Positions 5,763 to 24,028 of a DNA stretch of 38,816 nucleotides are shown piece after piece. The translations under genes and the position numbers were made by a program. The stretch's first letter is position 1; each line of letters opens with the position of its first letter. Under the pieces are notes generated by a model. It was not told where the DNA came from. It made no database searches and saw only the letters and a list, made by a program, of their open reading frames with translations. Origin of the DNA: Paludibacteraceae bacterium (GTDB lineage: Bacteria; Bacteroidota; Bacteroidia; Bacteroidales; Paludibacteraceae); the NCBI GenBank assembly GCA_017471285.1, contig JAFUUZ010000021.1, positions 1 through 38,816 on the forward strand, read 5' to 3'.

Positions 5763-7407
5763 TCTGTTCTGCTGTACGAGCCTATGGGCCGGCGACACGG
5801 TGTTTGTGAGCGGAGCTATCCAGCATGACGGATTGCTGGACTGGACTCCCGTTATGTACCACAGCAACAGTTACCTCGATCTGGGCGTCAACTGGCAGAG
5901 AGGGGTTACGGGTGACGGGTTATCGGTGACGGGTGGACGGAAGAAGACTTCCTTTCGGGAGTTAAGAGCCAAGACTCGTCTGGAGTTGACGCAATGGCCC
6001 TTACCGGGATACGAAGCGGACTTCAACGGCTACGGCATGAGCCATCTCAGCATCGCCGCTTCATTCACATGGGGCGAGATCACGATAGGCGATGTCTATG
6101 GCCAGTTCGGTTCGGGTCTGATCCTCAACCTCTACGAAGACCGTGCGTTAGGTATCGACGGAGCCTTACGCGGCGCGAAAATAGAAGCCACGCCCTACAA
6201 GGGCATTCATCTCACGGCGATAGGCGGCAAACAGAGACGGTATTGGAACTGTTACAAGGACAATGCTTTCGGCTGGAACTACGCCCGCGACGCAGCCATA
6301 GGCGCAGACGCGGAACTGCATATAGAGGAATGGATCCCGCAGATGCAAGCCCGAGACATAAGTTGGACGGTAGGCGGCAGCTGGGTCTCCAAATACGAAG
6401 CGCAGGACACGATCATTGCTTCGGGTGACGGGTTACCGGTGACGGGTGACGGGATGTACATGTACAACCTGCCCCGCTGGATAGGCGCAACGGACGTGCG
6501 CACCGGGCTGCAAGTGAAGGGGTTTGACCTGCTCGCGGAGTTTGCCTATAAATTCAACGACCCCGGCACAGAGAACCACTTCAGTTACAAAAACGGGATG
6601 GCAGGACTCATCAGTCTCGGCTACTCCCGCAAAGGGCTGTCCGTGCTGGCGCAGATGAAATATTCGGAGAACATGTCCTTCCGTTCGGAGCGACTTCGTA
6701 CGGGTCTGGCAGGCAGGCTGAACCATATGCCGGCTTTTGCACAGCAGCACACCTATGCGTTAGCGGCACTCTACCCTTACGCCACACAATATACCAAACA
6801 GGAATGGGCGGTGCAGGCGGAGGTGCGCTACACGTGGCCGCGCAAGACCAAGATGGGCGGACGGTACGGCACTACCATGCGGTGGGCGGCGAGTCATATC
6901 CGCGTGCCGGCGGAGAACGGGCAGAACGAGGCCTATACGGATGTCAACATGGAGCTTAACAAACGCCTCTCCAAGACATGGTGGCTCAACGCCATGCTGA
7001 TGTACCAGGCTTATAACCAACAGACGATAACCGGTCACGGGGGTATGATACGCTCCGGAATAGCGGTCATCGACGCACGGACCCAGGTGAACACCAACAT
7101 CTCCATGCGGGGCGAGATCCAGTATCTCTATTCGCCGGACCATGAGGGTCAATGGCTCTTCGCCTTGTACGAACTGACCCTTTACCGCCACTGGATGCTC
7201 AGCGGACAATGGATGTACAATATCGGCTACGCGCCGGATGCGACCAACAAACATTACTACACGGCAGGGCTGACCTTTACCTACGGCGCCCACCGCGCTA
7301 ACATAGGATATACCAAGACAAGGGAAGGATATAACTGTTCCGGCGGTATTTGCCGGTACGTACCACAAATGGAAGGAGTATGCGCAAGTTATTCATTTAC
7401 ATTCTAG
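5728..7407 (+). CDS. Outer-membrane beta-barrel protein, DUF6029-like
   Basis: A 559-residue outer-membrane barrel: a signal peptide ending LWA at about residue 21, alternating aromatic strands through the whole length, and a terminal YSFTF with C-terminal Phe. The order thioredoxin, barrel, Omp28 matches my memory of DUF6029 neighbourhoods in Bacteroidales; the family name is inference. The only start that keeps the signal peptide is GTG 5728 (or TTG 5743), 35 nt inside the preceding gene. Two copies of a 26-bp repeat (5910-5935, 6423-6448) are read in the same frame and give GDGLSVTG and GDGLPVTG, probably in loops. The last 28 nt overlap the next gene. Confidence 0.8.
   Translation: MTKKRLRNICVSLFCCTSLWAGDTVFVSGAIQHDGLLDWTPVMYHSNSYLDLGVNWQRGVTGDGLSVTGGRKKTSFRELRAKTRLELTQWPLPGYEADFNGYGMSHLSIAASFTWGEITIGDVYGQFGSGLILNLYEDRALGIDGALRGAKIEATPYKGIHLTAIGGKQRRYWNCYKDNAFGWNYARDAAIGADAELHIEEWIPQMQARDISWTVGGSWVSKYEAQDTIIASGDGLPVTGDGMYMYNLPRWIGATDVRTGLQVKGFDLLAEFAYKFNDPGTENHFSYKNGMAGLISLGYSRKGLSVLAQMKYSENMSFRSERLRTGLAGRLNHMPAFAQQHTYALAALYPYATQYTKQEWAVQAEVRYTWPRKTKMGGRYGTTMRWAASHIRVPAENGQNEAYTDVNMELNKRLSKTWWLNAMLMYQAYNQQTITGHGGMIRSGIAVIDARTQVNTNISMRGEIQYLYSPDHEGQWLFALYELTLYRHWMLSGQWMYNIGYAPDATNKHYYTAGLTFTYGAHRANIGYTKTREGYNCSGGICRYVPQMEGVCASYSFTF
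5903..5940. repeat. GGGTTACGGGTGACGG repeat inside the barrel gene, copy 1
   Basis: The core at 5910-5935 matches 6423-6448 in 25 of 26 bases. It is translated in frame as GDGLSVTG. A shorter relative lies at 2995-3007. Confidence 0.8.
6423..6453. repeat. GGGTGACGGG repeat inside the barrel gene, copy 2
   Basis: Second copy of the 26-bp element, one base different from copy 1 and in the same reading frame (GDGLPVTGDG). Confidence 0.8.
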
Positions 7408-12900: not shown

Positions 12901-13985
12901 GCGAACAGTTCTTCGGCACGGACGAGTATGGCGACACAGGGCTGGAACTGCTGATGAACTACGGCAACAAATGGCAGGCGGACCAAGCCTCCAATGCCAA
13001 CTCGCTCTTCGACGATTTCGACATCGCGGTGGAGGTGAAGCACCCCGATCTGCCGCAAGTACCGCGGTGGAACACGATCGAGCGGCTCAACAAAGAGAAG
13101 GAACTGATCGGTATCTATCTCTCCGCCCACCCGTTGGACGAGTACGAATACGAGGTTCGGGAACTATGCAACCTCACCGCGCATGAGTTGTCGCTTTTCG
13201 ATATATGGCGCCGTGCGGATGCGCGTGCAGACGCCGAATACCACATACGGGCTGCCATTGCGGAGATGACGCCCAAGGAGGACCTGCCGCAGGAAGAGAC
13301 ACTCGACTACGGCTCTCCGGAAACCGAAGAGGACGAGGTGCCGGTAGTAGTGGCACAGAAGCCCGTACAACCCGCTGCACCCGAAGAAGATAGACCGGTG
13401 CTCCCGTCCGAATTTATCGCGGCGCACAAGAACCAGATCAGCCTCTTCGGAGGTATCGTCACCGAAGCCGAACAGCGTATCAGCCAGAAAGGAAACCCCT
13501 ACGGCAGATATACAATAGAGGACTATTCCGGCAGCTATACCATTACGCTCTTCGGTTCCGCCTACTCCCAGTTTGCCCACATGATGCTGAAGGATCTGTA
13601 TGTCCTCATTACCGGCGTCATCCAGCAGAAAGGAGCCGGACAGCGGTGGTTCAAGGAGCAACCGGAGGAGAATGCCGAATATGAGTTTATGGTGCAGAAA
13701 GTAGAGATGCTGAATGAGGCTCAGGAGAAGCGCACCGAGGGCATAAACATTACTCTCCCGCTGAACAGGCTGACGCGTGAAGTAGCCGACGAACTGGCGG
13801 AGCAGGTACGTTCCTCCAAGGGACACGGACGGCTGCATATATCGGTCTATAACCCTACCAACCGCCAGACGGTAGCGCTCACCAGCCGAGACCATGCCAT
13901 ACATGTCACACCGGGTTTCTACCGATGGCTCTCCAGACGAAGACAAGATGGGATTTTGGATTTTAAAGTAGTCAGCAACCAATGA
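9984..13985 (+). CDS. dnaE: DNA polymerase III alpha subunit
   Basis: The replicative polymerase, 1333 residues, a little longer than E. coli DnaE (about 1160). The N-terminal PHP domain starts FTHLHVHSHYSLLDGLS. The palm has GPGRGSAAGSVVAYC, then PDIDTDF (about 467-473) with the two catalytic aspartates, and the third in KMDFLGL (about 642). YRPGPMDYI and the helix-hairpin-helix and OB regions follow. A variable acidic and proline-rich linker lies at about 1110-1145. The gene overlaps both neighbours by ATGA. The set of motifs is complete, so this should be the main polymerase. Confidence 0.97.
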   Translation: MSFTHLHVHSHYSLLDGLSKVEEIVDKCIASGMNAVALTDHGNMYGIKELLDYTKGLNKKRKAAAEEQGTPFEPFKPIVGCEVYCARRGRHSRGDDKAMNGEGRSYYIDRSGWHLILLAKNMTGYHNLCRIVSQGYMSDAYYYTPRIDRELLEKYHEGIICSSACLGGEVPQKILSGLAQFTPTKEELSTEEMVEQGVFKEAEETVKWFKDLFGEDYYIELQRHETQKPDGDQEVYERQKQVNPFLIALARKYDIKVIATNDSHFVNEEDAEAHDRLICLSTNHFVNDANRMHYTKQEWIKTPEEMAAIFSDIPEALENTQEIADKVEIYDIDHGAIMPKFDIPASFGKEEDYPDRLAFESAYLRHLTMEGARTRYGEERLENDEELKERIEFELNTIIKMGFPGYFLIVMDFIRAAREELDVSVGPGRGSAAGSVVAYCLRITDLDPLKYDLLFERFLNPDRISLPDIDTDFEDCGRGKVLDYVSRKYGETHVAHIVTYGKLATKSALADMGRVQQVPLPKVNELKALIPDREFPDSVMSKLPKGAKKPKVNLRSCYELVDELEHEYKYGDPNIRSTLEYAARLEGTIRQVGVHACGVIIGADDLTNFAPLSSVEDKASKRRVLVTEYDGHVVESVGLIKMDFLGLITLTIIKECLRNIKKARGIDIDIDHIPIDDAETYKLFQEGRTVAVFQFESGGMQKYLRELKPTVIGDLIAMNALYRPGPMDYIPQFIRRKQGLEPVTYDLPVMEKYLKDTYGVTVYQEQVMLLSRLLANFTRGESDKLRKAMGKKQLAVLASLKDKFMEGGKANGHDPKILNQIWEKWEKFASYAFNKSHAACYSWVAYQTGYLKAHYPAEFLAANLTVHKDDIKEVTKLMDECKALGLSVLEPDVNESELSFTVNKDGAIRFGLGGIKGVGEGAAEAIIHEREAHGKYTGIFDFLERVNLQSCNKKTIENLAKAGAFECFDDIYREQFFGTDEYGDTGLELLMNYGNKWQADQASNANSLFDDFDIAVEVKHPDLPQVPRWNTIERLNKEKELIGIYLSAHPLDEYEYEVRELCNLTAHELSLFDIWRRADARADAEYHIRAAIAEMTPKEDLPQEETLDYGSPETEEDEVPVVVAQKPVQPAAPEEDRPVLPSEFIAAHKNQISLFGGIVTEAEQRISQKGNPYGRYTIEDYSGSYTITLFGSAYSQFAHMMLKDLYVLITGVIQQKGAGQRWFKEQPEENAEYEFMVQKVEMLNEAQEKRTEGINITLPLNRLTREVADELAEQVRSSKGHGRLHISVYNPTNRQTVALTSRDHAIHVTPGFYRWLSRRRQDGILDFKVVSNQ

Positions 13986-15778
13986 AAATAGGTATTTACG
14001 GAGGCAGTTTCAACCCCGTGCATTTCGGGCATACAGGTCTGGCAGAATGGGTGCTCGGGCATACCGATCTGGACGAGATATGGTTCATGGTTTCGCCCAA
14101 CAACCCTCTCAAAGAGGCGCATACCCTCGCCCCCGAACAGGAGCGGCTGGAGGGAGTACGCAAGGCTGTGCAGGACATTCCGGGGCTCAAAGCATCGGAT
14201 TTCGAGTTCTCCCTACCCCGTCCTTCATACACTGCCAACACCCTGCGTGAGCTTCAGAAAGCCTATCCGCAGCATGAGTTCTCACTCATCATCGGCGAAG
14301 ACAACTACCGGATCATTGACCGGTGGAAGGAATACGAATACATTCTGTCCCATTTCCGCATTTTCGTCTATCCCCGCCACGGGGGCCAACAGGAAGAAAT
14401 GCCTCAATATTCAACGTACAATATTCAACTCCTCTCCGGCGCGCCGCTTTTCGACATATCCTCGTCTTTTCTCCGCGCCCAGGAGTACCTGTATTCTTCG
14501 CGGCCGCCGTTTCATATCGTAGGTGCCGCAGCCTACAAACCGGGTTTTGACAACATGCTCCGTCTTATGGCGCATTTAGGCAACCCGCATGAGCAGCTGC
14601 GCGCCGTGCATGTAGCCGGTACCAACGGCAAAGGCTCCACCTCCCATCTTATCGCCGCAGCACTACAGGCTGCCGGACTCAAAGTAGGGTTATACACCAG
14701 CCCCCATCTCGTCTCTCTCACGGAACGCATCCGCATCAACGGCACGCCGATTCCCGGAGACGAAGTGGTGCGTTTTGTAGAGCAGAACAGGGCTTTTCTG
14801 GATAAGATACAGCCTTCTTTCTTTGAGACAATGACCGCCATGGCTTTTGCCTATTTCGCGCAGGAGAAAGTGGATGTAGCGGTAGTAGAAGTAGGGTTGG
14901 GAGGACGGCTGGACAGCACCAACATACTGACACCTATCCTGTCTGTCATCACCAATATAGGAATGGATCACACCGAGTTTCTGGGTTCTACGCTGCCTCA
15001 GATAGCCCGGGAGAAAGCCGGAATTATCAAACCCGGCGTTCCCTGCGTCATCGGGGAGACCCATCCGCAGACGATGAATGTCTTTCTCGACCGCGCGCGC
15101 GAGTGCGATATATTAGGAGAAGGTCTCGAAACGACCCGTTGCCGCATCTGGTTTGCCGACCAGTGCGGGTATCTGCGTTCACGCCGGCTTCGCGAGGCAC
15201 CGGAATGCGATCTCAAAGGAATCTACCAGGACCTCAACCTCCAGACCGCATATGTGGCACTGCAGGTATTACGTAATTACGTCATTACGTCATTACGACA
15301 CTACGAGAAATTCACGCCCTTGGGGCGGGAAGCCATCGCGGAGGGTTTCGCCCATTGCGCAGCAATGACCGGTCTGCACGGCCGGTGGGAGACGCTCCGT
15401 GAGCACCCGCTCGTCATATGCGACACCGGGCATAACAGCCATGGTCTCCAGTATGTTGCCAAACAACTCAAGACCCTGTCCAACCCGCATGTTTGGATCG
15501 TGTTCGGGATGGTGAACGACAAAGACACAGATGTCGTCATGCGCCTTCTGCCGACAGGAGAGAAATACCGCTATCTCTTCACGCGCCCGGACACGCAGCG
15601 CGCACGGTCCGCAGAAGAAATGCTCAGCCTGTGGGGAAAAGAAGGGAAGGCTATAGACAAACCCGATGAAGCTATCCGTTACGCGTTGGAACATGCCGGA
15701 GCGGAAGATGCGGTCTTTATCGGAGGAAGTAACTATTTAGTAGGATATGCTATATCGTTGTTTGCACATAAAGACTGA
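13982..15778 (+). CDS. nadD-folC: NadD-FolC fusion: nicotinate-nucleotide adenylyltransferase / folylpolyglutamate synthase
   Basis: A single 598-residue frame joining two enzymes. Residues 1-165 are NadD (NaMN + ATP to NaAD): GGSFNPVHFGH (7-17), DEIWFMVSPNNPLK, the DFE and PSYT region, LIIGEDN and ISSSFLR (159-165). The usual last 20-25 residues of NadD are absent; at about residue 167 the sequence goes straight into FolC, which also begins slightly short, with EYLYSS..F. FolC (dihydrofolate / folylpolyglutamate synthase) has GTNGKGST (213-220), YTSPHL, VEVGLGGRLDSTN, TNIGMDHTEFLG and ICDTGHN. A four-unit 8-bp tandem repeat is translated in frame at about 430-440. It overlaps dnaE by ATGA and prmA by 32 nt. 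Confidence 0.9.
   Translation: MKIGIYGGSFNPVHFGHTGLAEWVLGHTDLDEIWFMVSPNNPLKEAHTLAPEQERLEGVRKAVQDIPGLKASDFEFSLPRPSYTANTLRELQKAYPQHEFSLIIGEDNYRIIDRWKEYEYILSHFRIFVYPRHGGQQEEMPQYSTYNIQLLSGAPLFDISSSFLRAQEYLYSSRPPFHIVGAAAYKPGFDNMLRLMAHLGNPHEQLRAVHVAGTNGKGSTSHLIAAALQAAGLKVGLYTSPHLVSLTERIRINGTPIPGDEVVRFVEQNRAFLDKIQPSFFETMTAMAFAYFAQEKVDVAVVEVGLGGRLDSTNILTPILSVITNIGMDHTEFLGSTLPQIAREKAGIIKPGVPCVIGETHPQTMNVFLDRARECDILGEGLETTRCRIWFADQCGYLRSRRLREAPECDLKGIYQDLNLQTAYVALQVLRNYVITSLRHYEKFTPLGREAIAEGFAHCAAMTGLHGRWETLREHPLVICDTGHNSHGLQYVAKQLKTLSNPHVWIVFGMVNDKDTDVVMRLLPTGEKYRYLFTRPDTQRARSAEEMLSLWGKEGKAIDKPDEAIRYALEHAGAEDAVFIGGSNYLVGYAISLFAHKD
15268..15299. repeat. Four tandem 8-bp ATTACGTC-type units inside folC
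   Basis: ATTACGTA, two copies of ATTACGTC, then ATTACGAC, head to tail. They are translated as part of NYVITSLRHYE in a variable part of FolC, where relatives have a short linker. The unit length is not a multiple of three, so loss or gain of one unit would shift the frame. Confidence 0.85.
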
Positions 15779-16571
15779 TTTTGCCGAGGAATGGCAGAAG
15801 GACCTGTTTGACCAGCACATGTGTGATCTGGGCGTGGACACTATTGACGCCGGTTCATCCCCGGAGCAAGGCGGAGCGGACTATTATATCCCTTCGGACC
15901 TATGGCAGCAGCACCAAGGGGAGATCAGAGAATACCTTTCATCTTTCAATTTTCCATTTTCCGTTTCCGAGGTCCCGGACGAGAACTGGAATGCTGTATG
16001 GGAGTCTGAGCACCCGGTTCAGGAACTGCCGTTGGGCGTAAGGATTGTTCCCCATTGCGCGTTCGGAGCCGGATACCATGAGACGACCTCTATGATGATT
16101 GAGCACCTGTTAGAGACCGACCTGACCGGCAAGAGAGTACTGGATAACGGGTGCGGGACGGGGGTCTTGGGAATCTTCGCCAAGAAACGCGGTGCCGAAG
16201 AAGTGACAGCCATTGACATAGACGACAAGAGCGTAGAGAACACGCTTGAGAACGCAGCGCTCAACGGGGTCAGGATAGACGCAAGGCTGGGAGATCTATC
16301 TGCTTTCGACTTTCGGCCTTCTGCTTTGAGCGAAGCGGTCTTTCGACTTTCCTCTTTCGACTTAATAATAGCTAACATCCACCGCAATATCCTTCTTGCC
16401 CAAATGCCTCTCTATGCTCGTCTGCTGTGTCGTGAAGGCGAGTTATGGATCAGCGGCTTCTATGAAACAGACTGCCCTGCTCTCCTCGCCGCAGCGGAAG
16501 AACAGGGCCTTCAGTATCTCGAAACCCGTGAGAAGGGCGAATGGCGTATGATGCTATTCCGCCACCCGTAA
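15747..16571 (+). CDS. prmA: Ribosomal protein L11 methyltransferase
   Basis: A SAM-dependent methyltransferase that trimethylates ribosomal protein L11, 274 residues. Visible: DENWNAVWE, FGAGYHETTSMMIEHL, motif I VLDNGCGTGVLGIFA, AIDIDDKSVENTLENAALNG, and FDLIIANIHRNIL (the NPPY-like site). Between GDLSA and FDLIIANI there are about 15 extra residues (FRPSALSEAVFRLSS) encoded by interspersed repeats at 16303-16361. The stretch between WESEH and CAFGAG is shorter than in the relatives I remember. ATG 15747 lies 32 nt inside the fusion gene. The gene ends the operon and faces gmk with only 4 nt between stops. Confidence 0.92.
   Translation: MLYRCLHIKTDFAEEWQKDLFDQHMCDLGVDTIDAGSSPEQGGADYYIPSDLWQQHQGEIREYLSSFNFPFSVSEVPDENWNAVWESEHPVQELPLGVRIVPHCAFGAGYHETTSMMIEHLLETDLTGKRVLDNGCGTGVLGIFAKKRGAEEVTAIDIDDKSVENTLENAALNGVRIDARLGDLSAFDFRPSALSEAVFRLSSFDLIIANIHRNILLAQMPLYARLLCREGELWISGFYETDCPALLAAAEEQGLQYLETREKGEWRMMLFRHP
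16303..16361. repeat. CTTTCGAC and CTTTGAGCGAAGCGGTC repeats inside prmA
   Basis: CTTTCGAC occurs at 16303-16310, 16340-16347 and 16354-16361. The 20-base CTTTGAGCGAAGCGGTCTTT (16324-16343) is identical to 18484-18503 in mnmE, and 17 of its bases recur inverted at 20038-20054. All of it is open and in frame in prmA. Confidence 0.88.
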
Positions 16572-16575
16572 CTTT

Positions 16576-17124
16576 TTACCTTTCAACTATCGCATCTAAG
16601 CGGGCGAACGCTTGCTCCAGATCGTCATTCACCACAACCCGGTCGAACTGAGGTTTGAAACTCAGTTCGTATTCCGCTTTCGCCAGGCGTTTCTCTATCA
16701 TCTCGGGCGAAGTGTCTCCTCGTCCCTCGAGCCTGCGTCGCAGTTCGTCTATCGACGGAGGACAGATAAAGACCGATACCGCCTTGTCGCCCAATATCCG
16801 TTTGAGGTTCACTCCCCCTTTGACATCCACGTCAAAGAGCACTTGTCTGCCAGCCGCCTCGATGCGCTCGATCTCGCTTTTCAGCGTGCCGTAATAGAGG
16901 CCTTCATAGACCTGCTCGTATTCGATGAACTCATCGCGGGCGATACGTTCTCGGAACTCATCAGCGGAGATGAAATAGTACTCCCTGCCGTTCACTTCCT
17001 GTCCCCGCGGAGGTCTGGTGGTGCAAGAGACAGACAGTTCAAATTTCCCGGGGTATTTATGCAGCATGTGCTGCACCATTGTTGATTTGCCGCTCCCCGA
17101 AGGCGCACAGAAAATATAAATCAT
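16576..17124 (-). CDS. gmk: Guanylate kinase
   Basis: GMP + ATP to GDP + ADP, cytoplasmic, 182 residues (normal length). P-loop APSGSGKST (7-15), SCTTRPPRGQEVNGREYYF for GMP binding, EYEQVYEGLYYGT, VLFDVDVKGG, and the lid with RRLEGRGD. It is the last gene of mnmE-yicC-gmk, 20 nt after yicC. That gap is made of the ATCGTACATCGTAAAT motif. Confidence 0.96.
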   Translation of the reverse strand: MIYIFCAPSGSGKSTMVQHMLHKYPGKFELSVSCTTRPPRGQEVNGREYYFISADEFRERIARDEFIEYEQVYEGLYYGTLKSEIERIEAAGRQVLFDVDVKGGVNLKRILGDKAVSVFICPPSIDELRRRLEGRGDTSPEMIEKRLAKAEYELSFKPQFDRVVVNDDLEQAFARLDAIVER

Positions 17125-17130
17125 AATTAT

Positions 17131-17147
17131 TTACGATGTACGATTTA
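17131..17147. repeat. TTTACGATGTACGATTT motif before gmk
   Basis: On the coding strand it reads AAATCGTACATCGTAAA, sitting between the yicC stop and the gmk start. A shorter relative precedes yicC (18063-18075), and AATCGTA directly precedes the mnmE ATG. Confidence 0.55.
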
Positions 17148-18059
17148 GAGCACATTGAGGACTTGTTCTTTGATTTGCTCCAGTATGTCTTTCATCTTGA
17201 CGACGATGATCTGCATTTCGCTTTGGTTCGATTTGGAGCCGAGGGTGTTGATCTCGCGTCCCATTTCCTGTGCTATGAAGCCTAATTTCTTCCCTACTCC
17301 GGCTCCGCTCCCCGAATGTTTTATCTGCGTATCGAGGCTCTCTCCCATTGTCTCGCGGAAATACTTGATATGGTTGGTGAGCCGCACTTTCTCCTCGGTT
17401 ATGTCCAGTTTCTCGAGGTAATAGATCATCTCCTGTTCCAGTCTGTTTCGGTCAATCTCCGCCTGTGTCTGTGCGGAGAGTTGCGCGAGGTTCTGCTCCA
17501 GCCTCTCTTTGATCTTTGCGACCCTGCCTTTCTCAAACGGCTCCACCTGCGCCAGCAGATTGGCTATAGCGTCCAGTTTCTCTGTGAACATTGCCTGCAA
17601 CGCCGCTCCTTCCTGTATCCGGAAAGCGACGAACGCATCCAGCGCTTCATCCAGCATCGTCTGTATCCCCTGCCATTCCTCGTCCGTCAGGTTCGTCTCC
17701 TCGTCCGGGTTCTTCATCACGTCCGGCAGCCTCATTATAGCCGCCATCACCTCAGCCGGGACAGGCGTACCGAAATGTTCGCTGTACTGCCGTGCGTACT
17801 CCTCCGCCGCCGACCAGTTCAGCGCTGCCTTCGTACTTGGTACTTCGTCACATTGTACTTCAATAACGAGGTCCACTTTTCCTCGCTCGATTCTCTTCGT
17901 CACGAGGTTGCGCAACTCCAACTCCCGTGCACGCAGTGCGGGAGACAGCCGGACGGTCAGGTCCATTGCTTTGGAGTTCAACGATCGGATCTCGCAAACG
18001 ATCTTGTGGCCTCTGAATTGGCTTTCGGTTCTGCCATAACCTGTCATGGATAATATCAT
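17145..18059 (-). CDS. yicC: YicC-family endoribonuclease
   Basis: A 304-residue YicC protein; the family is a conserved endoribonuclease. It starts with SMTGYGR and has EIRSLNSKAMDLTVRLSP in the YicC_N domain (about 1-155). It ends with the DUF1732 domain, with HIKYFRETM, GKKLGFIAQEMGREINTLGSKSN and VKMKDILEQIKEQVLN. ATG 18059 is taken; the ATG four codons later (MTGYG) is an alternative. The gene lies 20 nt after mnmE and 20 nt before gmk; yicC next to gmk is a common arrangement. A GTACTT-rich text at about 17829-17860, coding for VQCDEVPSTK, resembles the interspersed repeats. Confidence 0.93.
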   Translation of the reverse strand: MILSMTGYGRTESQFRGHKIVCEIRSLNSKAMDLTVRLSPALRARELELRNLVTKRIERGKVDLVIEVQCDEVPSTKAALNWSAAEEYARQYSEHFGTPVPAEVMAAIMRLPDVMKNPDEETNLTDEEWQGIQTMLDEALDAFVAFRIQEGAALQAMFTEKLDAIANLLAQVEPFEKGRVAKIKERLEQNLAQLSAQTQAEIDRNRLEQEMIYYLEKLDITEEKVRLTNHIKYFRETMGESLDTQIKHSGSGAGVGKKLGFIAQEMGREINTLGSKSNQSEMQIIVVKMKDILEQIKEQVLNVL

Positions 18060-18062
18060 GTC

Positions 18063-18075
18063 ATTTACGATTTAG
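18063..18075. repeat. ATTTACGATTTAG motif before yicC
   Basis: On the coding strand it reads CTAAATCGTAAAT in the 20-nt gap between the mnmE stop and the yicC start. It is a shortened form of the motif before gmk. Confidence 0.45.
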
Positions 18076-18079
18076 TCAT

Positions 18080-19444
18080 TTATTTTCCGATGCAGAATTT
18101 ACTGAATATGTTTGCCAGCACCTCCTGGTTGGTTATCTGTCCTGTCACTTCTCCCAGTGCATCGATGCAGTCCTTCAGATCCATAGCCAGCAGTTCGCCG
18201 GACAGGCAGTCATGCATCCCCTGCTGCACGCGGGTGATGGCTTCATGTGCCCGGCAAACCGCCTCATAGTGCCGTGCGTTGGAGAGGGTGACGGCTCCGG
18301 TGTGCATAGTCTCCCTTGCTGCCCGCACGAGTTCCCGCCGCAGCGGCTCTATATCCCCCTTCTTCGCAGATATATATATCCTTTCGTCCTTGGTAGCCGG
18401 TAGATGGTCCGATAGTCCTTCTATCAGGTCCGCCTTGTTCACCACCTCAATCACCGTTCCGGAACATGGTACATCGCTTTCTACTTTGAGCGAAGCGGTC
18501 TTTTCTCTTTCCGCGCAGCGGTCATTGGGCTCCCTTACCACTACCACTATCTGCGCCTTCTCTGCCGCTTGCCGGCTGCGTTCGATACCCATGTTCTCCA
18601 GTTTGTCGCCTGTCTCCCGCAGACCGGCGGTGTCTATCAGCCGGAATAGGATTCCGTCGATGACGAGTGTGTCTTCTATCGTGTCGCGGGTGGTACCTTG
18701 TATGTCGCTCACGATAGCGCGCTGTTCGCCCAGCAAGGCATTCAGCAGCGTCGATTTGCCTACGTTCGGTGCACCGATGATAGCCACCGATATACCGTTT
18801 CTGATGGCGTTTCCCGTTCTGAAAGAAGCCATCAGGTCCGCCAGTTTGCCCTCTATCTCATCCGCGAGACGGTTCAGTTCGGAGCGGTCGGCGAACTCCA
18901 GTTCCTCATGGTCTGCGAAGTCCAACTCCAGTTCTACCAGCGATGTGAAATGGAGCAGCCGTTCTCTTAGTTCGTTGAGTGCGTTGGATACCGCTCCTCT
19001 GAGTTGGCTCAGCGCGAGGTCTTTCTCCGCTTTGCTCTGCGCAGCGATGAGGTCCGCCACCGCCTCCGCCTGACTGAGGTCAATCTTGCCGTTGAGGAAT
19101 GCTCTCCGTGTGAACTCTCCCGGCTCTGCAGCGCGGCAACCGGCGTCAATCAGCCATTGGAGCAGCTCCTGCTGGATGAAAAGACTGCCGTGGCAGGCTA
19201 TCTCCACCGTCTCTTCGCCTGTGAACGAATGGGGGGCACGGAAGACCGTGCACAGCACCTCATCCAATACCTCCTTGTCTCTTTCAATCCTCCCGAAATG
19301 CACGGTATTGGCTTTGGCTCCGGCCAAGGGCACACGTCCGCAAAAGAGCGTATCCACGATAGCGATACTCCCCTCTCCCGAGACCCGTACGACGGCTATT
19401 CCCCCCGTTCCGTACGGTGTTGATATGGCGCAAATAGGTTCCAT
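18080..19444 (-). CDS. mnmE: tRNA modification GTPase MnmE
   Basis: With MnmG this makes the (carboxymethyl)aminomethyl group at U34 of certain tRNAs. 454 residues. The N-terminal domain starts PICAISTPYGTGGIAVVRVSG. The G domain lies within the helical domain: GAPNVGKST (224-232), the G2/G3 region with TTRD and DTAG (271-274), NKAD (336-339). The C-terminus is the characteristic FCIGK. Between VVVRE and NKAD the variable segment contains EKTASLKVES, encoded by the 20-bp repeat shared with prmA. First gene of mnmE-yicC-gmk. Its promoter ends only 14 bases before the ATG, which gives an extremely short leader. Confidence 0.96.
   Translation of the reverse strand: MEPICAISTPYGTGGIAVVRVSGEGSIAIVDTLFCGRVPLAGAKANTVHFGRIERDKEVLDEVLCTVFRAPHSFTGEETVEIACHGSLFIQQELLQWLIDAGCRAAEPGEFTRRAFLNGKIDLSQAEAVADLIAAQSKAEKDLALSQLRGAVSNALNELRERLLHFTSLVELELDFADHEELEFADRSELNRLADEIEGKLADLMASFRTGNAIRNGISVAIIGAPNVGKSTLLNALLGEQRAIVSDIQGTTRDTIEDTLVIDGILFRLIDTAGLRETGDKLENMGIERSRQAAEKAQIVVVVREPNDRCAEREKTASLKVESDVPCSGTVIEVVNKADLIEGLSDHLPATKDERIYISAKKGDIEPLRRELVRAARETMHTGAVTLSNARHYEAVCRAHEAITRVQQGMHDCLSGELLAMDLKDCIDALGEVTGQITNQEVLANIFSKFCIGK
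18484..18503. repeat. 20-bp CTTTGAGCGAAGCGGTC repeat inside mnmE
   Basis: Identical to 16324-16343 in prmA, but mnmE is on the minus strand, so it is read in the opposite sense (KTASLK instead of ALSEAV). Confidence 0.9.
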
Positions 19445-19458
19445 TACGATTCAGCGTG

Positions 19459-19489
19459 CAAAGGTACAACAAAAATTGCACATACGCAA
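19459..19489 (-). promoter_or_regulatory. Promoter of mnmE-yicC-gmk
   Basis: Minus strand: TTG (19489-19487), 20 bases, TACCTTTG (19466-19459). It shares TTGCGTATGTGCAA with the patB promoter. The ATG of mnmE is at 19444, so only about 8-10 nt of leader would precede it. Confidence 0.88.
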
Positions 19490-19516
19490 GAAAAAAACAG
19501 AAAAACGCGCGTGCTC

Positions 19517-19547
19517 TTGCATAATTCAAAAATTTGTTGTACCTTTG
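19517..19547 (+). promoter_or_regulatory. Promoter of the 19582 lipoprotein gene
   Basis: TTG (19517-19519), 20 bases, TACCTTTG (19540-19547), divergent from the mnmE promoter with 27 bases between the two. The ATG is 34 bases downstream. No separate promoter is clear before the following genes. Confidence 0.88.
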
Positions 19548-19581
19548 CAGCCAAATTGGGATTTTAACTAAAAAAACGATT

Positions 19582-20031
19582 ATGAGAAAATACTTATTTA
19601 TCTGTATGATGGCAGTAATGGGCGTATTGCTCTCCGGATGCGAGAAAGGACAGCCGTTCCATAAGAAGACCATTGACCTGACGGTGACTTCGGCGCAATG
19701 GGATTTTGACCAGAGCGCGAACATGTTCTTCTGCCATTTCGACATTCCCGAACTCACGGAGAACGTATATAACTACGCCGAGGTGAGCGTGAGCCACGAG
19801 TACAACAGCGGCAAGAACAACGCCTACCAGGTAGCGCTTCCGGAGACGATCTACAAGCAGATTGAGATCCAGGATACCGACAGCACCACCACCCCCTATT
19901 TCTACCAGCAACATATCGACTATGCCGTAGGTGTAGGGTTCGTAGAGGTATTCTGCACCATCTCCGATTTCTATTACGAGGAAGGCTGGACACCGGATCC
20001 TATGCTGTTCCGGTTGCAGATGAGCTATTAA
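19582..20031 (+). CDS. Small lipoprotein, unknown function
   Basis: A 149-residue lipoprotein with a clear signal, MGVLLSGC (lipid Cys at about 19). The rest looks like one beta-sandwich domain: DLTVTSAQWDFD, FFCHFDIPELTENVYNYAEV, then ISDFYYEEGWTPDPMLFRLQMSY. Small lipoproteins with a similar W-x-F start and PELT segment are common in Bacteroidales, but I know no assigned role. ATG 19582 is used; an earlier in-frame start at 19534 lies in the promoter. Repeat-rich DNA follows the stop. Confidence 0.8.
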   Translation: MRKYLFICMMAVMGVLLSGCEKGQPFHKKTIDLTVTSAQWDFDQSANMFFCHFDIPELTENVYNYAEVSVSHEYNSGKNNAYQVALPETIYKQIEIQDTDSTTTPYFYQQHIDYAVGVGFVEVFCTISDFYYEEGWTPDPMLFRLQMSY

Positions 20032-20037
20032 TAGAGA

Positions 20038-20121
20038 GACCGCTTCGCTCAAAGAAAAAAGCGCCAAACAGCGGCTTTTAGCAACCCAAGGTTGCTGTCT
20101 TTCGACTTTTGACTTTCGACT
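20038..20121. repeat. Repeat cluster between the lipoprotein and DAHP synthase genes
   Basis: Three parts: an inverted 17-base copy of the prmA/mnmE repeat (20038-20054); a hairpin AGCAACC-CAA-GGTTGCT (20080-20096); and CTTTCGAC text at 20099-20121, whose 23 bases are an exact inverted copy of 20832-20854 inside the DAHP synthase gene. The cluster occupies the place where the start of that gene should be. Confidence 0.85.
20056..20080 (+). terminator. Possible degenerate terminator after the lipoprotein gene
   Basis: AAAAGC and GCTTTT arms surround a poorly paired centre, like a decayed version of the clpB terminator (AAAAAGCGCC arm). The T tract is only four long. A further 7-bp hairpin follows at 20080-20096. 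Weak. Confidence 0.3.
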
Positions 20122-20127
20122 CAAATT

Positions 20128-20143
20128 TGTAAATCGATTTACA
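20128..20143. promoter_or_regulatory. Perfect 16-bp palindrome TGTAAATCGATTTACA
   Basis: A perfect self-complementary 16-mer just before the first conserved DAHP synthase residues (GPCSAES). It could be an operator or part of the repeat text; it overlaps the only possible start region of that gene. It resembles the TyrR box but has four instead of six central bases. Confidence 0.4.
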
Positions 20144-21132
20144 TATTAGGTCCCTGTTCTGCGGAGAGTCGCGAGCAGGTAGTACTCACCGCGGGGCAGA
20201 TAAAGGCCGTTTGCGGTGAGATGCCTTTTATTTTCCGCGCGGGCGCATGGAAGCCGCGCACGAGTCCGCACACGTTCCGCGGCGTAGGCGAAGAGGCATT
20301 GGTATGGCTGGCTGAGGTGAAGAGGGTGTTTGGCATGGATGTTGCAACAGAGGTAGCGACGCCGGAGCATGTACAGAAAGCCATAGCCGCCGGTATTGAC
20401 TACCTGTGGATCGGTGCCCGGACAAGCGCTAACCCGATGGCGGTGGAAAACCTCACCCAGGCCCTCTCCTCAAGAGAGGGAGGACAGATAAAGGGCATAT
20501 TGATTAAGAACCCGGTGAACGAAGACGCGGCGCTATGGATAGGCAACATAGAGCGGTTGGAGAAGACAGGCATCCCCGTCCTGGCGGTACATAGAGGTTG
20601 CGGGCACCGTCCCTGCTGGGCGATGGCGCATCAGGTGCGGCTGGCGCGGCCGGACATACCGATGCTGCTGGACCCGAGCCACATGAGCGGCGATTCCGCC
20701 AAAGTGCCGGAACTGATGAACAAGATATTCGAGCTGGGTCTGGACGGAGCGATGGTAGAGGTGCATTGCCATCCGGAGCAAGCGCTGTCGGACGCCAAGC
20801 AGCAGATAGAGCCTTCTTCGTTAGCGAAGATAGTCGAAAGTCAAAAGTCGAAAGTCGAAAGCAAAAAGACCGAATTGAATTGGTTGCGGGCGGAGATAGA
20901 CGAGCTGGACGAGAGACTATGGGACACGATAGCCGCACGAATGGATGTCAGCCGGCGGATAGGAGAATGGAAGAAAGCCAACGGCGTAGCACCACTCCAG
21001 CCCGAGAGATACGAGATGATAGTTGAAAGACTAAAAGCCCCCCAGCCCCCTAAAGGGGGAGGATTGCGGACGGAGTTTAAGTTGGCGTTATGGGAGTTGA
21101 TTCATGAGGAGAGCCTGCGTCAGCAAAACTGA
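20137..21132 (+). CDS. Bifunctional DAHP synthase / chorismate mutase, start codon unclear
   Basis: First step of aromatic amino acid synthesis (PEP + erythrose 4-phosphate to DAHP) fused to chorismate mutase. The DAHP synthase part has GPCSAES (20149-20169), FIFRAGAWKPRT, GVGEEAL, ATEVATPEHV, WIGARTSANP, ILIKNPVN, AVHRGC, LLDPSHMSG and VEVHCHPE. The AroQ-type mutase follows: LRAEIDELDERL...ARMDVSRRIGEWKK and IHEESLRQQ at the end. The frame is open back to TGA 20110 but holds no ATG, GTG or TTG before GPCSAES; ATG 20221 would remove that motif. The start is set at ATT 20137; ATT 20125 is an alternative. Three repeat inserts are in frame: LSSREGG, VESQKSKVESK and PQPPKGGG. It may be functional with a rare start, or a damaged gene. 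Confidence 0.75.
   Translation: MYILGPCSAESREQVVLTAGQIKAVCGEMPFIFRAGAWKPRTSPHTFRGVGEEALVWLAEVKRVFGMDVATEVATPEHVQKAIAAGIDYLWIGARTSANPMAVENLTQALSSREGGQIKGILIKNPVNEDAALWIGNIERLEKTGIPVLAVHRGCGHRPCWAMAHQVRLARPDIPMLLDPSHMSGDSAKVPELMNKIFELGLDGAMVEVHCHPEQALSDAKQQIEPSSLAKIVESQKSKVESKKTELNWLRAEIDELDERLWDTIAARMDVSRRIGEWKKANGVAPLQPERYEMIVERLKAPQPPKGGGLRTEFKLALWELIHEESLRQQN
20452..20487. repeat. GC-rich palindromic element in DAHP synthase gene, copy 1
   Basis: CCCTCTC (20462-20468), loop CTCAA, GAGAGGG (20474-20480), preceded by CTCACCCAGG. It is read in frame as LTQALSSREGG, about six residues longer than relatives at this point. Confidence 0.75.
20832..20861. repeat. AGTCGAAAG repeat at the synthase-mutase junction
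   Basis: 20832-20854 is the exact inverted copy of 20099-20121 (23 bases). It is read in frame as VESQKSKVESK in the linker between the two enzyme domains. Confidence 0.88.
21035..21066. repeat. GC-rich palindromic element in chorismate mutase part
   Basis: CCCCC-TAAA-GGGGG (21046-21059) within AGCCCCCCAG text. It is read in frame as KAPQPPKGGGL between VERL and the last helix. A related element lies in the radical SAM gene (38254-38290). Confidence 0.82.
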
Positions 21133-21180
21133 CGAATTAAAAATTCAAAATTAAAAATTCAAAATTAAGAATTACGAATT
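21133..21180. repeat. AT-rich TTCAAAATTAAAAA repeat before the DUF5686 gene
   Basis: Alternating AATTAAAAATTCAAAATT text fills the 46-nt gap; its last TT forms part of the TTG start codon of the next gene. The same text occurs at 2891-2910 and 2963-2990. Confidence 0.7.
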
Positions 21181-24028
21181 GAAAAAGTTAAGGTACATAG
21201 TAATTTTGATCCTGTGCTTCGCCGGGATGGCGAGTGCGCAGGAGGTGACAAGTATATCGGGTACGGTAGTGGACGGCGACACGGGCGAGACACTGCCGTT
21301 CGTACAGATATATTTCTTGAAATCAACCACCAGCAAAGGCATGATCCCGTCGGAGATAGGTACGACGAGCGATATAGACGGTAACTTCTCTATCAGCAAC
21401 AGTGCCGGCTACAACACGCTGAACTTCCAGATGTTGGGCTACAAGACCGAAATGCTGACCCTCCGCAAGGGTCAGAACCGCAAGAACGTGAAGGTCAAGA
21501 TGACTCCGGACGTTTACGGTCTGCAAGATATCGTCGTGACGCCGAAGCACCGCAAGCGGGATTACAAACGCAAAGGCAACCCTGCGGTAGAGCTGATCAA
21601 GAACGTGATCGCACACAAGGACTCGTTCTGCGTGAAGACCGTTGACCAATACACCGCCAAGAGTTACAGCCGTATGTCTTTTGCGCTGGATAACATCAAG
21701 GTGAACTGGGAAAAACCGTTCTGGAAAGATTTCGCCTTCGTGAAGAAATACGTTGACACGACGGGCGTGTACCCGAACGTGACTGTCAGCATCCGCGAAC
21801 ACCTGAACACGGAATACTACCAGAAACGTCCTCACCGCGAGAAGAAGATCCTGGACAAGAAACGTATCTTCGGTATCGAGAGCGTGATCGGCTCGGAGTC
21901 GTTCCAGCAGAATATAAACGCTATCTTCAAGGACGTAGATATCAACGACAACAGCATGAACCTGCTGTTCAACCGCTTCGTCTCGCCGCTGAGCAGCACG
22001 CTTGCCGTGAGTTTCTACCAGTACTACATCATGGACACAATCATGGTGGACGGCTATCCGTGTATAGACCTGGCGTTCGTGCCAGTGAACTCGGAGAGTT
22101 ACGGCTTCACAGGGCACCTCTATATCGTGAACGACAGCACGTTCCGCCTGAAGAAATACGCGATCAACATCCCGCCGGACATCAACCTCAACTTCGTCAG
22201 CAACTTCTCTATCGAGCACAGTTACAAGCAGCTGGAGAACGGTCTATGGGCACCGGACAGGACAAGCACCTACGCCAAATTCTATATCATCAACAACAAA
22301 CGCGGTATGTTAGCCCGCCAGACCAAGATATACACAGGCTGGGACATGGAGACACCGATAGCAAGGGAGACCTTCTCCAACCTGAACGGTCCGGAGCCGG
22401 AGGTCAACGACACAACGGCAGAGCTGGTATGGGAGGGTCAATGGACGGACGAGATGCGCCCGGAGCCGCTGACTAAATACGAGAGTTCGGTGGTCGATCT
22501 GGTTCGCGAGTTCACCAACACGCCTAAGTTCAACAGTCTGGCGCTCTTTGTGAACGCCGTCACGACCGAGTACATACCTACCCGCAAAGCGGAGTTCATG
22601 TATCTCAGCAAGTTCGATTTCGGACCGATATATAACTTCGTCAGCTGGAACATGTTAGAGGGCGTCCGTCTGCGCGTCGGCGGCGGTTCGACGGCGCGGC
22701 TGCACGACCAGTTCTTCTTCCGCGGATATGTAGCCTTCGGCACCAAAGACCTGCTGCCTAAATACAGCGCGACACTCGTCTATTCGTTCAACAAGCACAA
22801 GAACCAGCCATACGACGGACTGCGCCACCACTTGCAATTCATGGCGCAATACGACATCGAGGAACCGGGCCAGGTGAACGACGTAGTGCGGCGGGATAAC
22901 ATCTTGATGTCTATTCCTACCAGCAGGCCGACCATGCCGTTCGCGCAGTATGTCTTCCACGCCAAGGCGGAATACATGAAAGAATGGCGGAACAACCTGA
23001 TGCTGAAAGCCAGTTTCGATTTCACGAATAACCGCGCTGCCGGTTCGCTGCGGTACGACCGCGTGGACTACACGAGGCATATTAACGGAACGGACACCAC
23101 TTTCTCGCAATCGCTGAGCAATATAGGCTCTTACCGCAACTACGAGGGTGTGTTTGAGTTGGAGTACTCCCCCGGCTCCATGATAGGTATCGACCGCGAG
23201 GGAATAAAGAACCCGTGGGGACTGGAGAAAGATGCGCCGACAATCAATCTGCGGCACACCGTGGGCTATCTGGACGACCGGCACAACGGCGGCGACGGAT
23301 TTATCTACAACAAGACGGAAATCATGTTTGACAAGCGTTTCTGGTTCTCCGCTTTCGGACATTTGGACATGCGTATCAAGACCGGCATGATATGGCAGAA
23401 AACGCCGTTCACCAAACTGCATATACCCGAGACGAGCACCAGTATCCTGTTGGGTCAGCGAAGCTTCAACCTGATGAAACCGATGGAGTTCATGATGGAC
23501 GAATATGTGTCGCTTTTCGCAACCTATTACTTCAAAGGCTGGATCCTGAACCGTATTCCGGGTATTAACAAACTGAAGCTGCGCGGCGTAGTGTCCTTCT
23601 CCGGTGTCTATGGCGGTCTGACCAAGAAGAACAACCCTTATCTGGAGACAGGAAGCGGACTGTATGACTTCCCGCACACGGCGTGGGAGAACGGAATCGT
23701 GGACAACGCGTTTGACCAGCAAGGCTATATCAAAGACGGCTATCGCACCAGTTCCCCGATCGGCAAACTGCCGTACATGGAGATCACTGCCGGATTTGAG
23801 AATATCCTCAAATTCATCCGTATCGATTACATCCGCCGAATCACGTACAACGACTATGAGCTGCCGTATATGATCCAGAAGATGGAGATGATAGACCCGA
23901 CACGTCCTACCATGGGCTACAGACCCGCCGTGGACGAGAACGGCGACCCGGTCATGATCCATGGCCGCAGACGAATTGCCGCCTGGGGACGAAACGGCGT
24001 CAAGATAACTGTCAGAATCTCGTTGTAA
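21179..24028 (+). CDS. DUF5686 outer-membrane protein with carboxypeptidase-regulatory-like domain
   Basis: A 949-residue exported protein. The signal peptide ends MASA at about residue 20. Residues of about 25-115 form a carboxypeptidase-D regulatory-like domain (ISGTVVDGDTGETLPFVQI...DIDGNFSI), as at the N-terminus of many outer-membrane proteins of the phylum. Then comes the DUF5686 region (GNPAVELIKNVIAHKD, YTAKSYSRM) and a long C-terminal barrel ending in VKITVRISL. The role of the family is not known; a TonB box or plug domain is not evident. The start must be TTG 21179, since no upstream ATG is in frame and the next ATG would cut the signal peptide. No promoter is visible in the gap, so it is probably cotranscribed with the gene upstream. 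Confidence 0.88.
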   Translation: MKKLRYIVILILCFAGMASAQEVTSISGTVVDGDTGETLPFVQIYFLKSTTSKGMIPSEIGTTSDIDGNFSISNSAGYNTLNFQMLGYKTEMLTLRKGQNRKNVKVKMTPDVYGLQDIVVTPKHRKRDYKRKGNPAVELIKNVIAHKDSFCVKTVDQYTAKSYSRMSFALDNIKVNWEKPFWKDFAFVKKYVDTTGVYPNVTVSIREHLNTEYYQKRPHREKKILDKKRIFGIESVIGSESFQQNINAIFKDVDINDNSMNLLFNRFVSPLSSTLAVSFYQYYIMDTIMVDGYPCIDLAFVPVNSESYGFTGHLYIVNDSTFRLKKYAINIPPDINLNFVSNFSIEHSYKQLENGLWAPDRTSTYAKFYIINNKRGMLARQTKIYTGWDMETPIARETFSNLNGPEPEVNDTTAELVWEGQWTDEMRPEPLTKYESSVVDLVREFTNTPKFNSLALFVNAVTTEYIPTRKAEFMYLSKFDFGPIYNFVSWNMLEGVRLRVGGGSTARLHDQFFFRGYVAFGTKDLLPKYSATLVYSFNKHKNQPYDGLRHHLQFMAQYDIEEPGQVNDVVRRDNILMSIPTSRPTMPFAQYVFHAKAEYMKEWRNNLMLKASFDFTNNRAAGSLRYDRVDYTRHINGTDTTFSQSLSNIGSYRNYEGVFELEYSPGSMIGIDREGIKNPWGLEKDAPTINLRHTVGYLDDRHNGGDGFIYNKTEIMFDKRFWFSAFGHLDMRIKTGMIWQKTPFTKLHIPETSTSILLGQRSFNLMKPMEFMMDEYVSLFATYYFKGWILNRIPGINKLKLRGVVSFSGVYGGLTKKNNPYLETGSGLYDFPHTAWENGIVDNAFDQQGYIKDGYRTSSPIGKLPYMEITAGFENILKFIRIDYIRRITYNDYELPYMIQKMEMIDPTRPTMGYRPAVDENGDPVMIHGRRRIAAWGRNGVKITVRISL

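Follow-up and report, generated by a model that had tools for sequence, protein, structure and literature searches.

Small interspersed repeats with a hairpin slot in genes and spacers of a Paludibacteraceae genome and its sister

The small dispersed repeats (SDRs) of Nostoc and other cyanobacteria were reportedly tied by Elhai et al. in 2008 to heptameric tandem repeats and found to be present or absent between close strains. Possible mobility is noted for these repeats of about 20 bp (PMC2884548); this and the following descriptions are drawn from excerpts of the cited papers. Rickettsia palindromic elements (RPEs), 100-150 nt long, look selfish and enter both spacers and coding sequence without breaking reading frames (PMC4316617). 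REP and REPIN sequences are short hairpins with one unpaired tag (GTAG or CGTC) and alternative complementary stem letters, located mostly downstream of genes and in some cases within them; REPs favour head-to-head dimers, and a CGTC type with stems of 8-9 bp is reported in Bacteroidetes (PMC3733652, PMC3116915). Heptameric tandem repeats include the TAACTGA type, described from Beggiatoaceae, from cyanobacteria and from five Bacteroidetes (PMC4679880), and the GGGAATC type (PMC4692102); in Xanthomonas, relatives differ extensively in the length and sequence of such arrays. In Cardinium, also of the Bacteroidetes, a small non-autonomous MITE derives from IS982 (PMC9769881). A literature search for a Bacteroidota description of elements like those below, with subscription papers mostly outside its scope, found none.

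The window, a 38,816-nt stretch of a Paludibacteraceae bacterium (GCA_017471285.1, contig JAFUUZ010000021.1), holds three copies of a 20-mer, with a mean of 0.01 expected and none of 100 shuffles reaching three. Two are exact and lie within prmA (15747-16571, plus strand) and mnmE (18080-19444, minus strand), genes whose identities are backed by Pfam/NCBIfam and whose frames stay open across the copies, just as the preliminary description had claimed. The inverted intergenic copy, which it gave as 17 bases at 20038-20054, extends over 20035-20054 with one mismatch. By our own gene calls it lies 12 nt past a stop codon, and its GGTC end points to this codon, that of the gene ending at 20031. 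PrmA had also been called about 15 residues longer than its family; over the aligned stretch it exceeds the shortest congener form by 14 residues, near that figure, and this short form is present in 16 of the 28 aligned congeners that cover the site (loci from the 30 of 39 genomes with a PrmA match, own genome included; L227 misses the site).

Table 1. Features of the repeat family along the window; G079 is the sister genome.
Feature	Positions	Strand	Remark
Heptad array (CTTTCGA-type units) carrying the element, in prmA	16303..16363	+	G079 keeps the array without the element
30-bp stretch of prmA, in frame, missing in G079	16323..16352	+	
Element copy 1: CTTTGA - GCGAAGC hairpin - GGTCTTT	16324..16343	+	mini-hairpin 16330-16336
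27-bp stretch of mnmE, in frame, missing in G079	18477..18503	+ (gene on minus strand)	
Element copy 2	18484..18503	+	mini-hairpin 18490-18496
Second hairpin core GCGCAGC-GGTC adjoining copy 2, beyond the strict slot	18513..18523	+	G079 sequence differs
Element copy 3, intergenic	20035..20054	-	mini-hairpin 20042-20048
62-bp window-specific stretch 3' of stop codon, missing in G079	20036..20097	.	
Inverted repeat AAAAAAGCG...CGGCTTTT next to copy 3	20055..20079	.	terminator-like by eye only
CTTTCGA heptad array adjoining copy 3	20099..20121	+	CCGTAAT heptads there in G079
Related heptad array, in frame between DAHP synthase and chorismate mutase domains	20832..20861	+	identical in G079

The family consists of small interspersed repeats in which a short hairpin occupies a conserved slot, CTTTGA-hairpin-GGTCTTT. 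Slots stand alone or form units with a period of 16 or 23 nt, 7-bp repeats often surround them, and one slot accommodates many different hairpins. The 20-mer is one version: it holds as an interspersed repeat, but not as a fixed unit, the true unit being the hairpin slot among heptad repeats. Stems of at least 3 bp are formed in 23 of 81 distinct slot fillings, compared with a mean of 6.5 and a maximum of 13 in 1000 shuffles, and the stem letters co-vary on both arms. At several loci a composite form combines a long-stem hairpin, a 16-nt linker and a GCGNAGC hairpin.

Loop and stem are linked. Where the stem has 2 bp, the loop is GNA/GNNA in 211 of 243 slots, mostly on GC/GC stems, part of this 2-bp GNA excess being ascertained by the search patterns used; the counts are 16/21 at 3-4 bp and 3/22 at 5 bp or more. 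In small subsets with little or no ascertainment, GNNA is found in 8/8 paired tetraloop slots and GNA in 9/10 paired 7-mers with stems other than GC/GC. Stems of 0-1 bp (54 of 340 slots) are in many cases the regex starting one heptad early and in others chance. DNA mini-hairpins in which two or more G-C pairs close a GNA/GNNA loop are described as extraordinarily stable (excerpt of PMC4686876), a class to which the element belongs by sequence fit; bare 7-mers give no structure in nearest-neighbour folding with RNA or DNA parameters. The stem-loop trade-off is a physical rule and suggests that a folded DNA strand is what persists.

The family shares with REPs the short hairpin with one unpaired tag and alternative complementary stem letters, as well as positions both downstream of genes and within them. 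Its tag, however, is GGTC, with CTTTGA on the opposite side, and GTAG or CGTC tags are absent from the slots read, where the regex demands GGTC and leaves variant tags uncounted (a congener mnmE, L239, has GTCC after its hairpins). Stems are mostly 2-6 bp, shorter than in the CGTC type, units are direct tandems rather than head-to-head dimers, and no link to Y1_Tnp (RAYT) is found. The known heptameric arrays, partly from Bacteroidetes, resemble the 7-bp arrays here, whereas the excerpts of PMC4679880 and PMC4692102 describe a single unit type and mention no hairpin module. The Cardinium MITE is likewise a small non-autonomous repeat dispersed in a Bacteroidetes genome, but it has a parent insertion sequence; here a search for Y1_Tnp, the one family sought, gave no parent. 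With SDRs the family has in common a dispersed repeat of about 20 nt that is present or absent between close relatives. The phylum is another, and SDRs are not known to have a conserved slot whose stem letters are free, or to follow the GNA loop rule.

Across the window the sister genome is 95% identical and lacks all three copies. Its prmA is shorter by 30 bp and its mnmE by 27 bp, with the frame kept in each, and the spacer by 62 bp; the aligned window holds just 27 indels, those at these copies included. The prmA difference is a pure 30-bp insertion with clean edges, and contig C17 of the own genome contains the 27-bp mnmE insert a second time, without a single letter changed. In a 162-kb sister alignment, 31 merged regex sites were curated to 23 by removing eight that match ordinary sequence by chance (C76 35163; C29 40199, 45759, 125243 and 145324; C17 15613; C27 34244 and 37387). 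Ten of the 23 are common to both genomes, seven occur only in the own genome (G000) and six only in G079, so that 13 are confined to one genome. C17 17353 passed from the G079-only class to the shared one when the alignment was read, and two sites that misfit the regex stand outside this count: C29 123587, a coding site seen in G000 alone, and C29 151191, common to both genomes. At all nine polymorphic coding sites, called coding by our own uncurated codon-usage script and two of them (C29 148117 and 148657) in one gene, the length difference is a multiple of three; frame tolerance thus extends past prmA and mnmE.

Two species about 5% apart thus differ at fixed loci, where a copy may be present in one and absent from the other, or exchanged. 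The differences in length are not uniform (15, 21, 27, 30, 42 and 62 bp), and many sites are replacements; at C29:131938, at C29:148657 and from 20036 onward in the window, for example, the two sisters carry different repeat families at the same locus. When heptad targets were inspected by eye, no fixed ends or target-site duplication could be defined. The empty sites expected in a relative are found, with clean edges, and agree with mobility by insertion as the preliminary description had it, but at several sites, including mnmE and the spacer, one repeat has replaced another. Its likeness to the Rickettsia elements stands for frame tolerance (prmA +30, mnmE +27) and fails for size: the length differences span 15-62 nt and the hairpins 7-17 nt, far below the RPE (PMC4316617, in part). 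The phylum also differs, as do the free stem letters, the tandem 16/23-nt units and the heptad setting. Overall, the interpretation as a protein-tolerated interspersed element is supported. Sequence gain inside conserved proteins can be counted here between species about 5% apart, one insert having an exact match within its genome, and this makes it testable by sequencing how small repeats originate and spread when no enzyme is evident. As a warning for the reading of Bacteroidota proteins, repeat inserts may be the source of extra loops and of gaps in alignments.

The many copies anticipated genome-wide are there: the core AGCGNAGCGGTC occurs 63 times in the own genome (55% complete) and the reversed-pattern control not at all. 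Congeners hold 0-202 copies, and the sum over 37 genomes of the genus is 1,164 against 23 for the control. Among 394 genomes sampled across the phylum, the 17-mer is found in just seven, own included, hence a patchy distribution. A set of 29 genomes, all chosen for having a match, comprises five likely genus members and 24 others; eight of these 24 hold 44-72 copies (control 0-1) and the remainder 2-29. In the IMG/VR collection only two stretches match the 20-nt pattern, little sign of phage spread.

The preferred reading, given a probability of about 0.5, is that a small dispersed repeat persists in the form of a DNA hairpin and is copied when replication switches template. The element would have no enzyme of its own. 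Its hairpin strand would fold while single-stranded, the polymerase would slip or switch template at the hairpin with CTTT-rich repeats as microhomology, and 15-60 nt would be copied from another repeat copy, yielding a new insert, a swap of repeat family or a swap of a single hairpin. Alternatively, one arm may be copied from the other, which would keep stems paired. Selection would then remove frame-breaking copies, so that survivors would sit in variable protein loops and 3' flanks. That template switching makes and keeps hairpins is in print (PMC8794818, in part). The excess of genomic copies over the control, the absence of all three window copies from G079, the exact C17 match, the locus swaps, the change confined to hairpins and linker at C27:46259, the stem pairing beyond shuffles, the loop rule, the coding differences in multiples of three and the similar copy numbers with and without Y1_Tnp argue for such copying. 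Against it, the donor matches traced extend no further than the repeat itself, and the bare 7-mers do not fold in nearest-neighbour calculations. A bolder version, in which a selfish element inherits DNA shape rather than sequence and spreads as a heat- and nuclease-resistant single-stranded mini-hairpin with no protein of its own, is doubtful. At replication gaps, single-stranded DNA would be either the form in which the hairpin survives or its template, with annealing by its heptad arms; a GNA/GNNA loop would go with a 2-bp stem and almost any loop with 5 bp or more, and many 15-nt forms would contain paired G-A mismatches.

Much as RAYTs are believed to mobilise REP doublets, some structure-reading recombinase or single-strand transposase could act in trans on a true small mobile element. 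This is a tentative alternative, to which the clean prmA insertion, the recurrence of the composite form and the 0-202 spread among congeners, with high copy numbers in scattered distant genomes, all lend weight. PF01797 (Y1_Tnp), the single enzyme family tested, has matches in 17 of 38 genomes, 13 of them over the cut-off of 23 bits, including the own genome and G079 with one each (23.9 and 25.3 bits). The median copy number is 23 with a match and 10 without, which is not significant (Mann-Whitney p 0.32, 38 genomes), and matches are lacking in four genomes that are among the richest in copies: G023 (202), G002 (106), G004 (74) and G033 (72). Y1_Tnp does not explain copy number, and a RAYT/REP origin as general driver is unsupported; the variable lengths and many replacements also speak against an element moved in trans.

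Rather improbable is a selected function at gene ends, where, on the strand that faces the gene, a GC hairpin plus T-rich sequence would stop or slow antisense transcription or protect the mRNA 3' end, with internal copies as by-products. It would suit the orientation of copies at most 60 nt from a stop codon, whose GGTC end is toward the stop in 21/21 (18/18 clusters); neutral copying, the preferred reading, predicts this only given a bias in the target strand or in selection. A gene-end function would also suit a long-stem form that has TCTTTT behind it and an RNA folding energy of -10.3 kcal/mol. The commonest form, however, has a 2-bp stem, 28 of the 63 copies are in coding sequence by our own gene calls (17 same strand, 11 opposite), the 13 of 23 curated sites confined to one genome are unshared with a sister about 5% away, and G011, G027 and G032, each 97-98% complete, hold 0, 1 and 1 copies.

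Homologous recombination with unsampled strains could make some of the presence and absence. That old repeats were merely shuffled among strains, with no recent copying, is very unlikely as a full account. Divergence is raised beside some polymorphic sites, such as the right flanks in prmA and mnmE, but at C27:46259 only two hairpins and their linker differ between flanks identical as shown, at C27:41737 the repeat alone changes between nearly or fully identical flanks, and the short PrmA form in 16/28 congeners points to a young copy in prmA. The genomes used are mostly metagenome assemblies, yet chance or assembly artefact has next to no standing, being already refuted by 63 matches against none and further opposed by the ten curated sites common to two separate assemblies and by a tandem array with 15 copies (control 1) in Lentisphaera marina strain IMCC 11369.

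A known RNA family was considered and discarded, the three matches at positions 15700-21300 all scoring far below gathering scores. AAGCGGT resembles Pasteurellaceae uptake signals; the free variation of the loop base and of the stem letters is the reason to put a DNA uptake signal aside. The repeat is dispersed dozens of times in rumen Bacteroidales genomes and in some distant relatives. Counting against the template-switching reading, lag-7 matching in the flanks, with coding and intergenic labels assigned by position, is only modestly raised (0.294 coding and 0.307 intergenic, control 0.250); lags 2 and 4 almost equal lag 7 at intergenic sites (0.291 and 0.288).

Both 20-bp copies that the preliminary description placed in prmA and mnmE are exact, the third is inverted with one mismatch over 20, and three matches of this type within 38.8 kb lie far above shuffled sequence. 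Profile matches confirm the host genes as PrmA and MnmE; the third copy occupies the gap separating the stop codon at 20031 from the following gene. The genome-wide search proposed there returned many copies: in the window's own genome, G000, which is 55% complete at 1.55 Mb, 42 matches to the 17-mer core (two mismatches or fewer) and 63 to AGCGNAGCGGTC were counted, versus 0 for each reversed pattern. The 20-mer is just one filling among many of a slot read as CTTTGA/CTGTCA ... GGTC. Short fillings include GCGAAGC, GCGCAGC, GCGTAGC, GCGGAGC, GTGAAAC and ACGAAGT, and further ones are GGCGAAGCC, GTCCGAAGGAC, GCGGCTTAGCCGC, GCAGGCACCGCCTGC and GGTCACTCGGTGACC. Across the fillings, the flanks remain constant and both hairpin arms vary jointly. 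In one set of genus loci, 23 of the 81 distinct fillings form perfect stems with 3 bp or more; re-dealing the right halves 1000 times gave 6.5 on average and never more than 13. The units repeat with a period of 16 nt (hairpin + 9) or 23 nt (hairpin + 16), their linkers differing by 7 nt, and a composite form recurs in which a 16-nt linker joins a long-stem hairpin to a GCGNAGC hairpin. Lag-7 matching in the flanks is modestly raised (0.294 for 28 coding sites and 0.307 for 34 intergenic ones, against a control value of 0.250), with lags 2 and 4 nearly equal to lag 7 in the intergenic flanks.

Among 340 slots, a GNA or GNNA loop closes 211 of the 243 with 2-bp stems, a share partly ascertained because the search patterns favoured GNA. 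The same loops are found in 16 of 21 slots with 3-4 bp stems and in 3 of 22 with stems of at least 5 bp; in the remaining 54 the stem is 0-1 bp, often because the search pattern began one heptad too soon. In a fairer, small subset, all 8 fully paired tetraloop slots carry GNNA, and 9 of the 10 fully paired 7-mers whose stems are not GC/GC have GNA. By eye, about half of the 15-nt forms have a triloop whose inner pairs are separated from outer pairs by a GA/GA mismatch. DNA hairpins with GNA or GNNA loops and at least two G-C pairs are described in PMC4686876 as extraordinarily stable and nuclease-resistant. Since the GNNA set contains loops outside the RNA GNRA type (GTCA, GATA, GTTA, GCTA), its composition suggests that the form which folds may be DNA. 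Nearest-neighbour folding, which gives the special loop no credit, leaves the bare 7-mers unfolded.

By our own gene calls, 28 of the 63 core copies in G000 lie within genes, on both strands (17 and 11), and 35 between genes. For 21 of these 35, a stop codon lies no more than 60 nt away, and the GGTC end is directed toward that codon in 21/21 copies (18/18 clusters). Selection on post-stop sequence, strand-biased copying or a gene-end function could each account for this orientation.

The prmA-mnmE stretch, searched in 178 genus genomes including G000, has one close sister, G079 (93%); the next-best genome reaches 73% with partial coverage. Contig C13 of G079 is 95% identical to the window, with 27 indels in total, including a 59-N run. 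The element stretches of 30 bp in prmA, 27 bp in mnmE and 62 bp in the spacer all lack a counterpart there. The empty site expected in a relative is clean in prmA, where the heptad array is retained and the element alone is missing, but at mnmE and in the spacer the adjoining sequence differs too, the sister's spacer carrying CCGTAAT heptads. An exact duplicate of the 27-bp mnmE stretch is found in contig C17 of G000. The PrmA loop is short in 16 of 28 aligned congeners; in others it contains heptads of a different kind, and L202 has the CTGTC subfamily there. The loop is therefore a repeated target, and from this comparison of sequences the prmA copy in the window is probably young.

Over 162,273 aligned bases of G000 and G079 (four contigs, blocks 87-97% identical), 10 sites are common to both, 7 are restricted to G000 and 6 to G079, after 8 chance rows were dropped and one row was reassigned on reading the alignment. 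All 9 polymorphic coding sites (two in one gene) differ in length by a multiple of three; the five intergenic comparisons gave differences of 62, 30, -15, 1 and 32. At C27:46259, the two genomes share the slots and differ in the hairpins that fill them (GCAGGC-TT-GCCTGC versus GCAGC-TCC-GCTGC; GCGCAGC versus GCGAAGC) and in the linker; the flanks, as far as shown, are identical. At C29:131938 and C29:148657, the hairpin family in one genome is matched by heptads or a CTCTCCC...GGGAGAG palindrome in the other.

Such copies would arise by slippage and template switching on a strand prone to folding. In line with this route, lengths vary, whole families and single hairpins are swapped, one insert has an exact match elsewhere in the genome, and the targets are heptads; template switching is reported to create and keep hairpins (PMC8794818, PMC7202029). 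Mobilisation in trans by an enzyme is a less likely alternative. Y1_Tnp (RAYT domain) matches occur in 17 of 38 genomes, 13 over the cut-off, and both G000 and G079 carry a marginal one, barely over it, which makes such mobilisation very slightly more likely. Yet four of the most copy-rich genomes gave no Y1_Tnp match, and copy number does not differ significantly between genomes with and without one (medians 23 versus 10, p 0.32), so Y1 enzymes, the sole family tested, are not required. The existence of the family, its paired arms, its turnover and its rules of frame and orientation are demonstrated by the data; from them we infer that the single-stranded fold is the cause and template switching the route, with no enzyme involved.

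AGCGNAGCGGTC is present at least once in 36 of 37 genus genomes (1-202 copies among carriers), summing to 1,164 versus 23 reversed-pattern matches; in other families of the order, 5 of 24 genomes have 1-2 matches, not above the control. The 17-mer occurs in 7 of 394 sampled phylum genomes, counting G000. The GTDB matches listed include rumen Paludibacteraceae, scattered Flavobacteriales, Chitinophaga-labelled and Prevotellaceae genomes, and one Lentisphaera. Of 29 genomes counted, all chosen for having a match, 24 are outside the genus by title: eight hold 44-72 copies versus 0-1 in the control (L081, L090, L100, L120, L123, L127, L156, L188) and 16 hold 2-29. Their loci show the identical slot; 7-nt hairpins predominate in it, and long stems such as GTCAGCCGCGGCTGAC are few. 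In a Lentisphaera marina genome, beyond Bacteroidota, L109 4188-4290 is a tandem array of the family's 16-nt unit.

The likeness to Rickettsia palindromic elements holds for the way the family works but not for size. It also works like cyanobacterial small dispersed repeats, and differs from REPs in both tag and transposase. The supposed lack of any such description in the phylum stands for this family, of which the literature searched gave no description, but not for short repeats per se, since CGTC-type REPs (PMC3733652) and TAACTGA heptads (PMC4679880) are reported in Bacteroidetes.

Coordinates of repeats and genes in the window
Feature	Position	Remark
20-mer in prmA	16324-16343	
20-mer in mnmE	18484-18503	
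Third copy, intergenic	20035-20054	inverted
Second palindromic family, CCCTCTCC...GGAGAGGG / CCCTTTAGGG type	20451-20480, 21040-21060, 38268-38282	in frame within genes; also L201, L230, L233
Unrelated heptad arrays (AATTCAC, GGGTGAC, AAAATTC)	2854-2996, 5895-5951, 6422-6448, 21135-21178	one lies within an ORF and differs by 12 bp from G079
DAHP synthase-chorismate mutase gene	20099-20221 region	truncated match, profile from position 50
ORF, NadD-like nucleotidyltransferase domain joined to FolC	13982-15778	looks like an unusual fusion
ORF (-)	27964-37476	3170 aa, many internal repeats

In the DAHP synthase-chorismate mutase gene, a GPCSAES-like domain start can be read 5' of the ATG at 20221, and by eye no ATG, GTG or TTG lies between the heptad array and this start in the window or G079. 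The usual start may have been replaced by the repeat array, or a rare start may be used. The second palindromic family occupies some loci in one species where heptads or the hairpin family stand in another.
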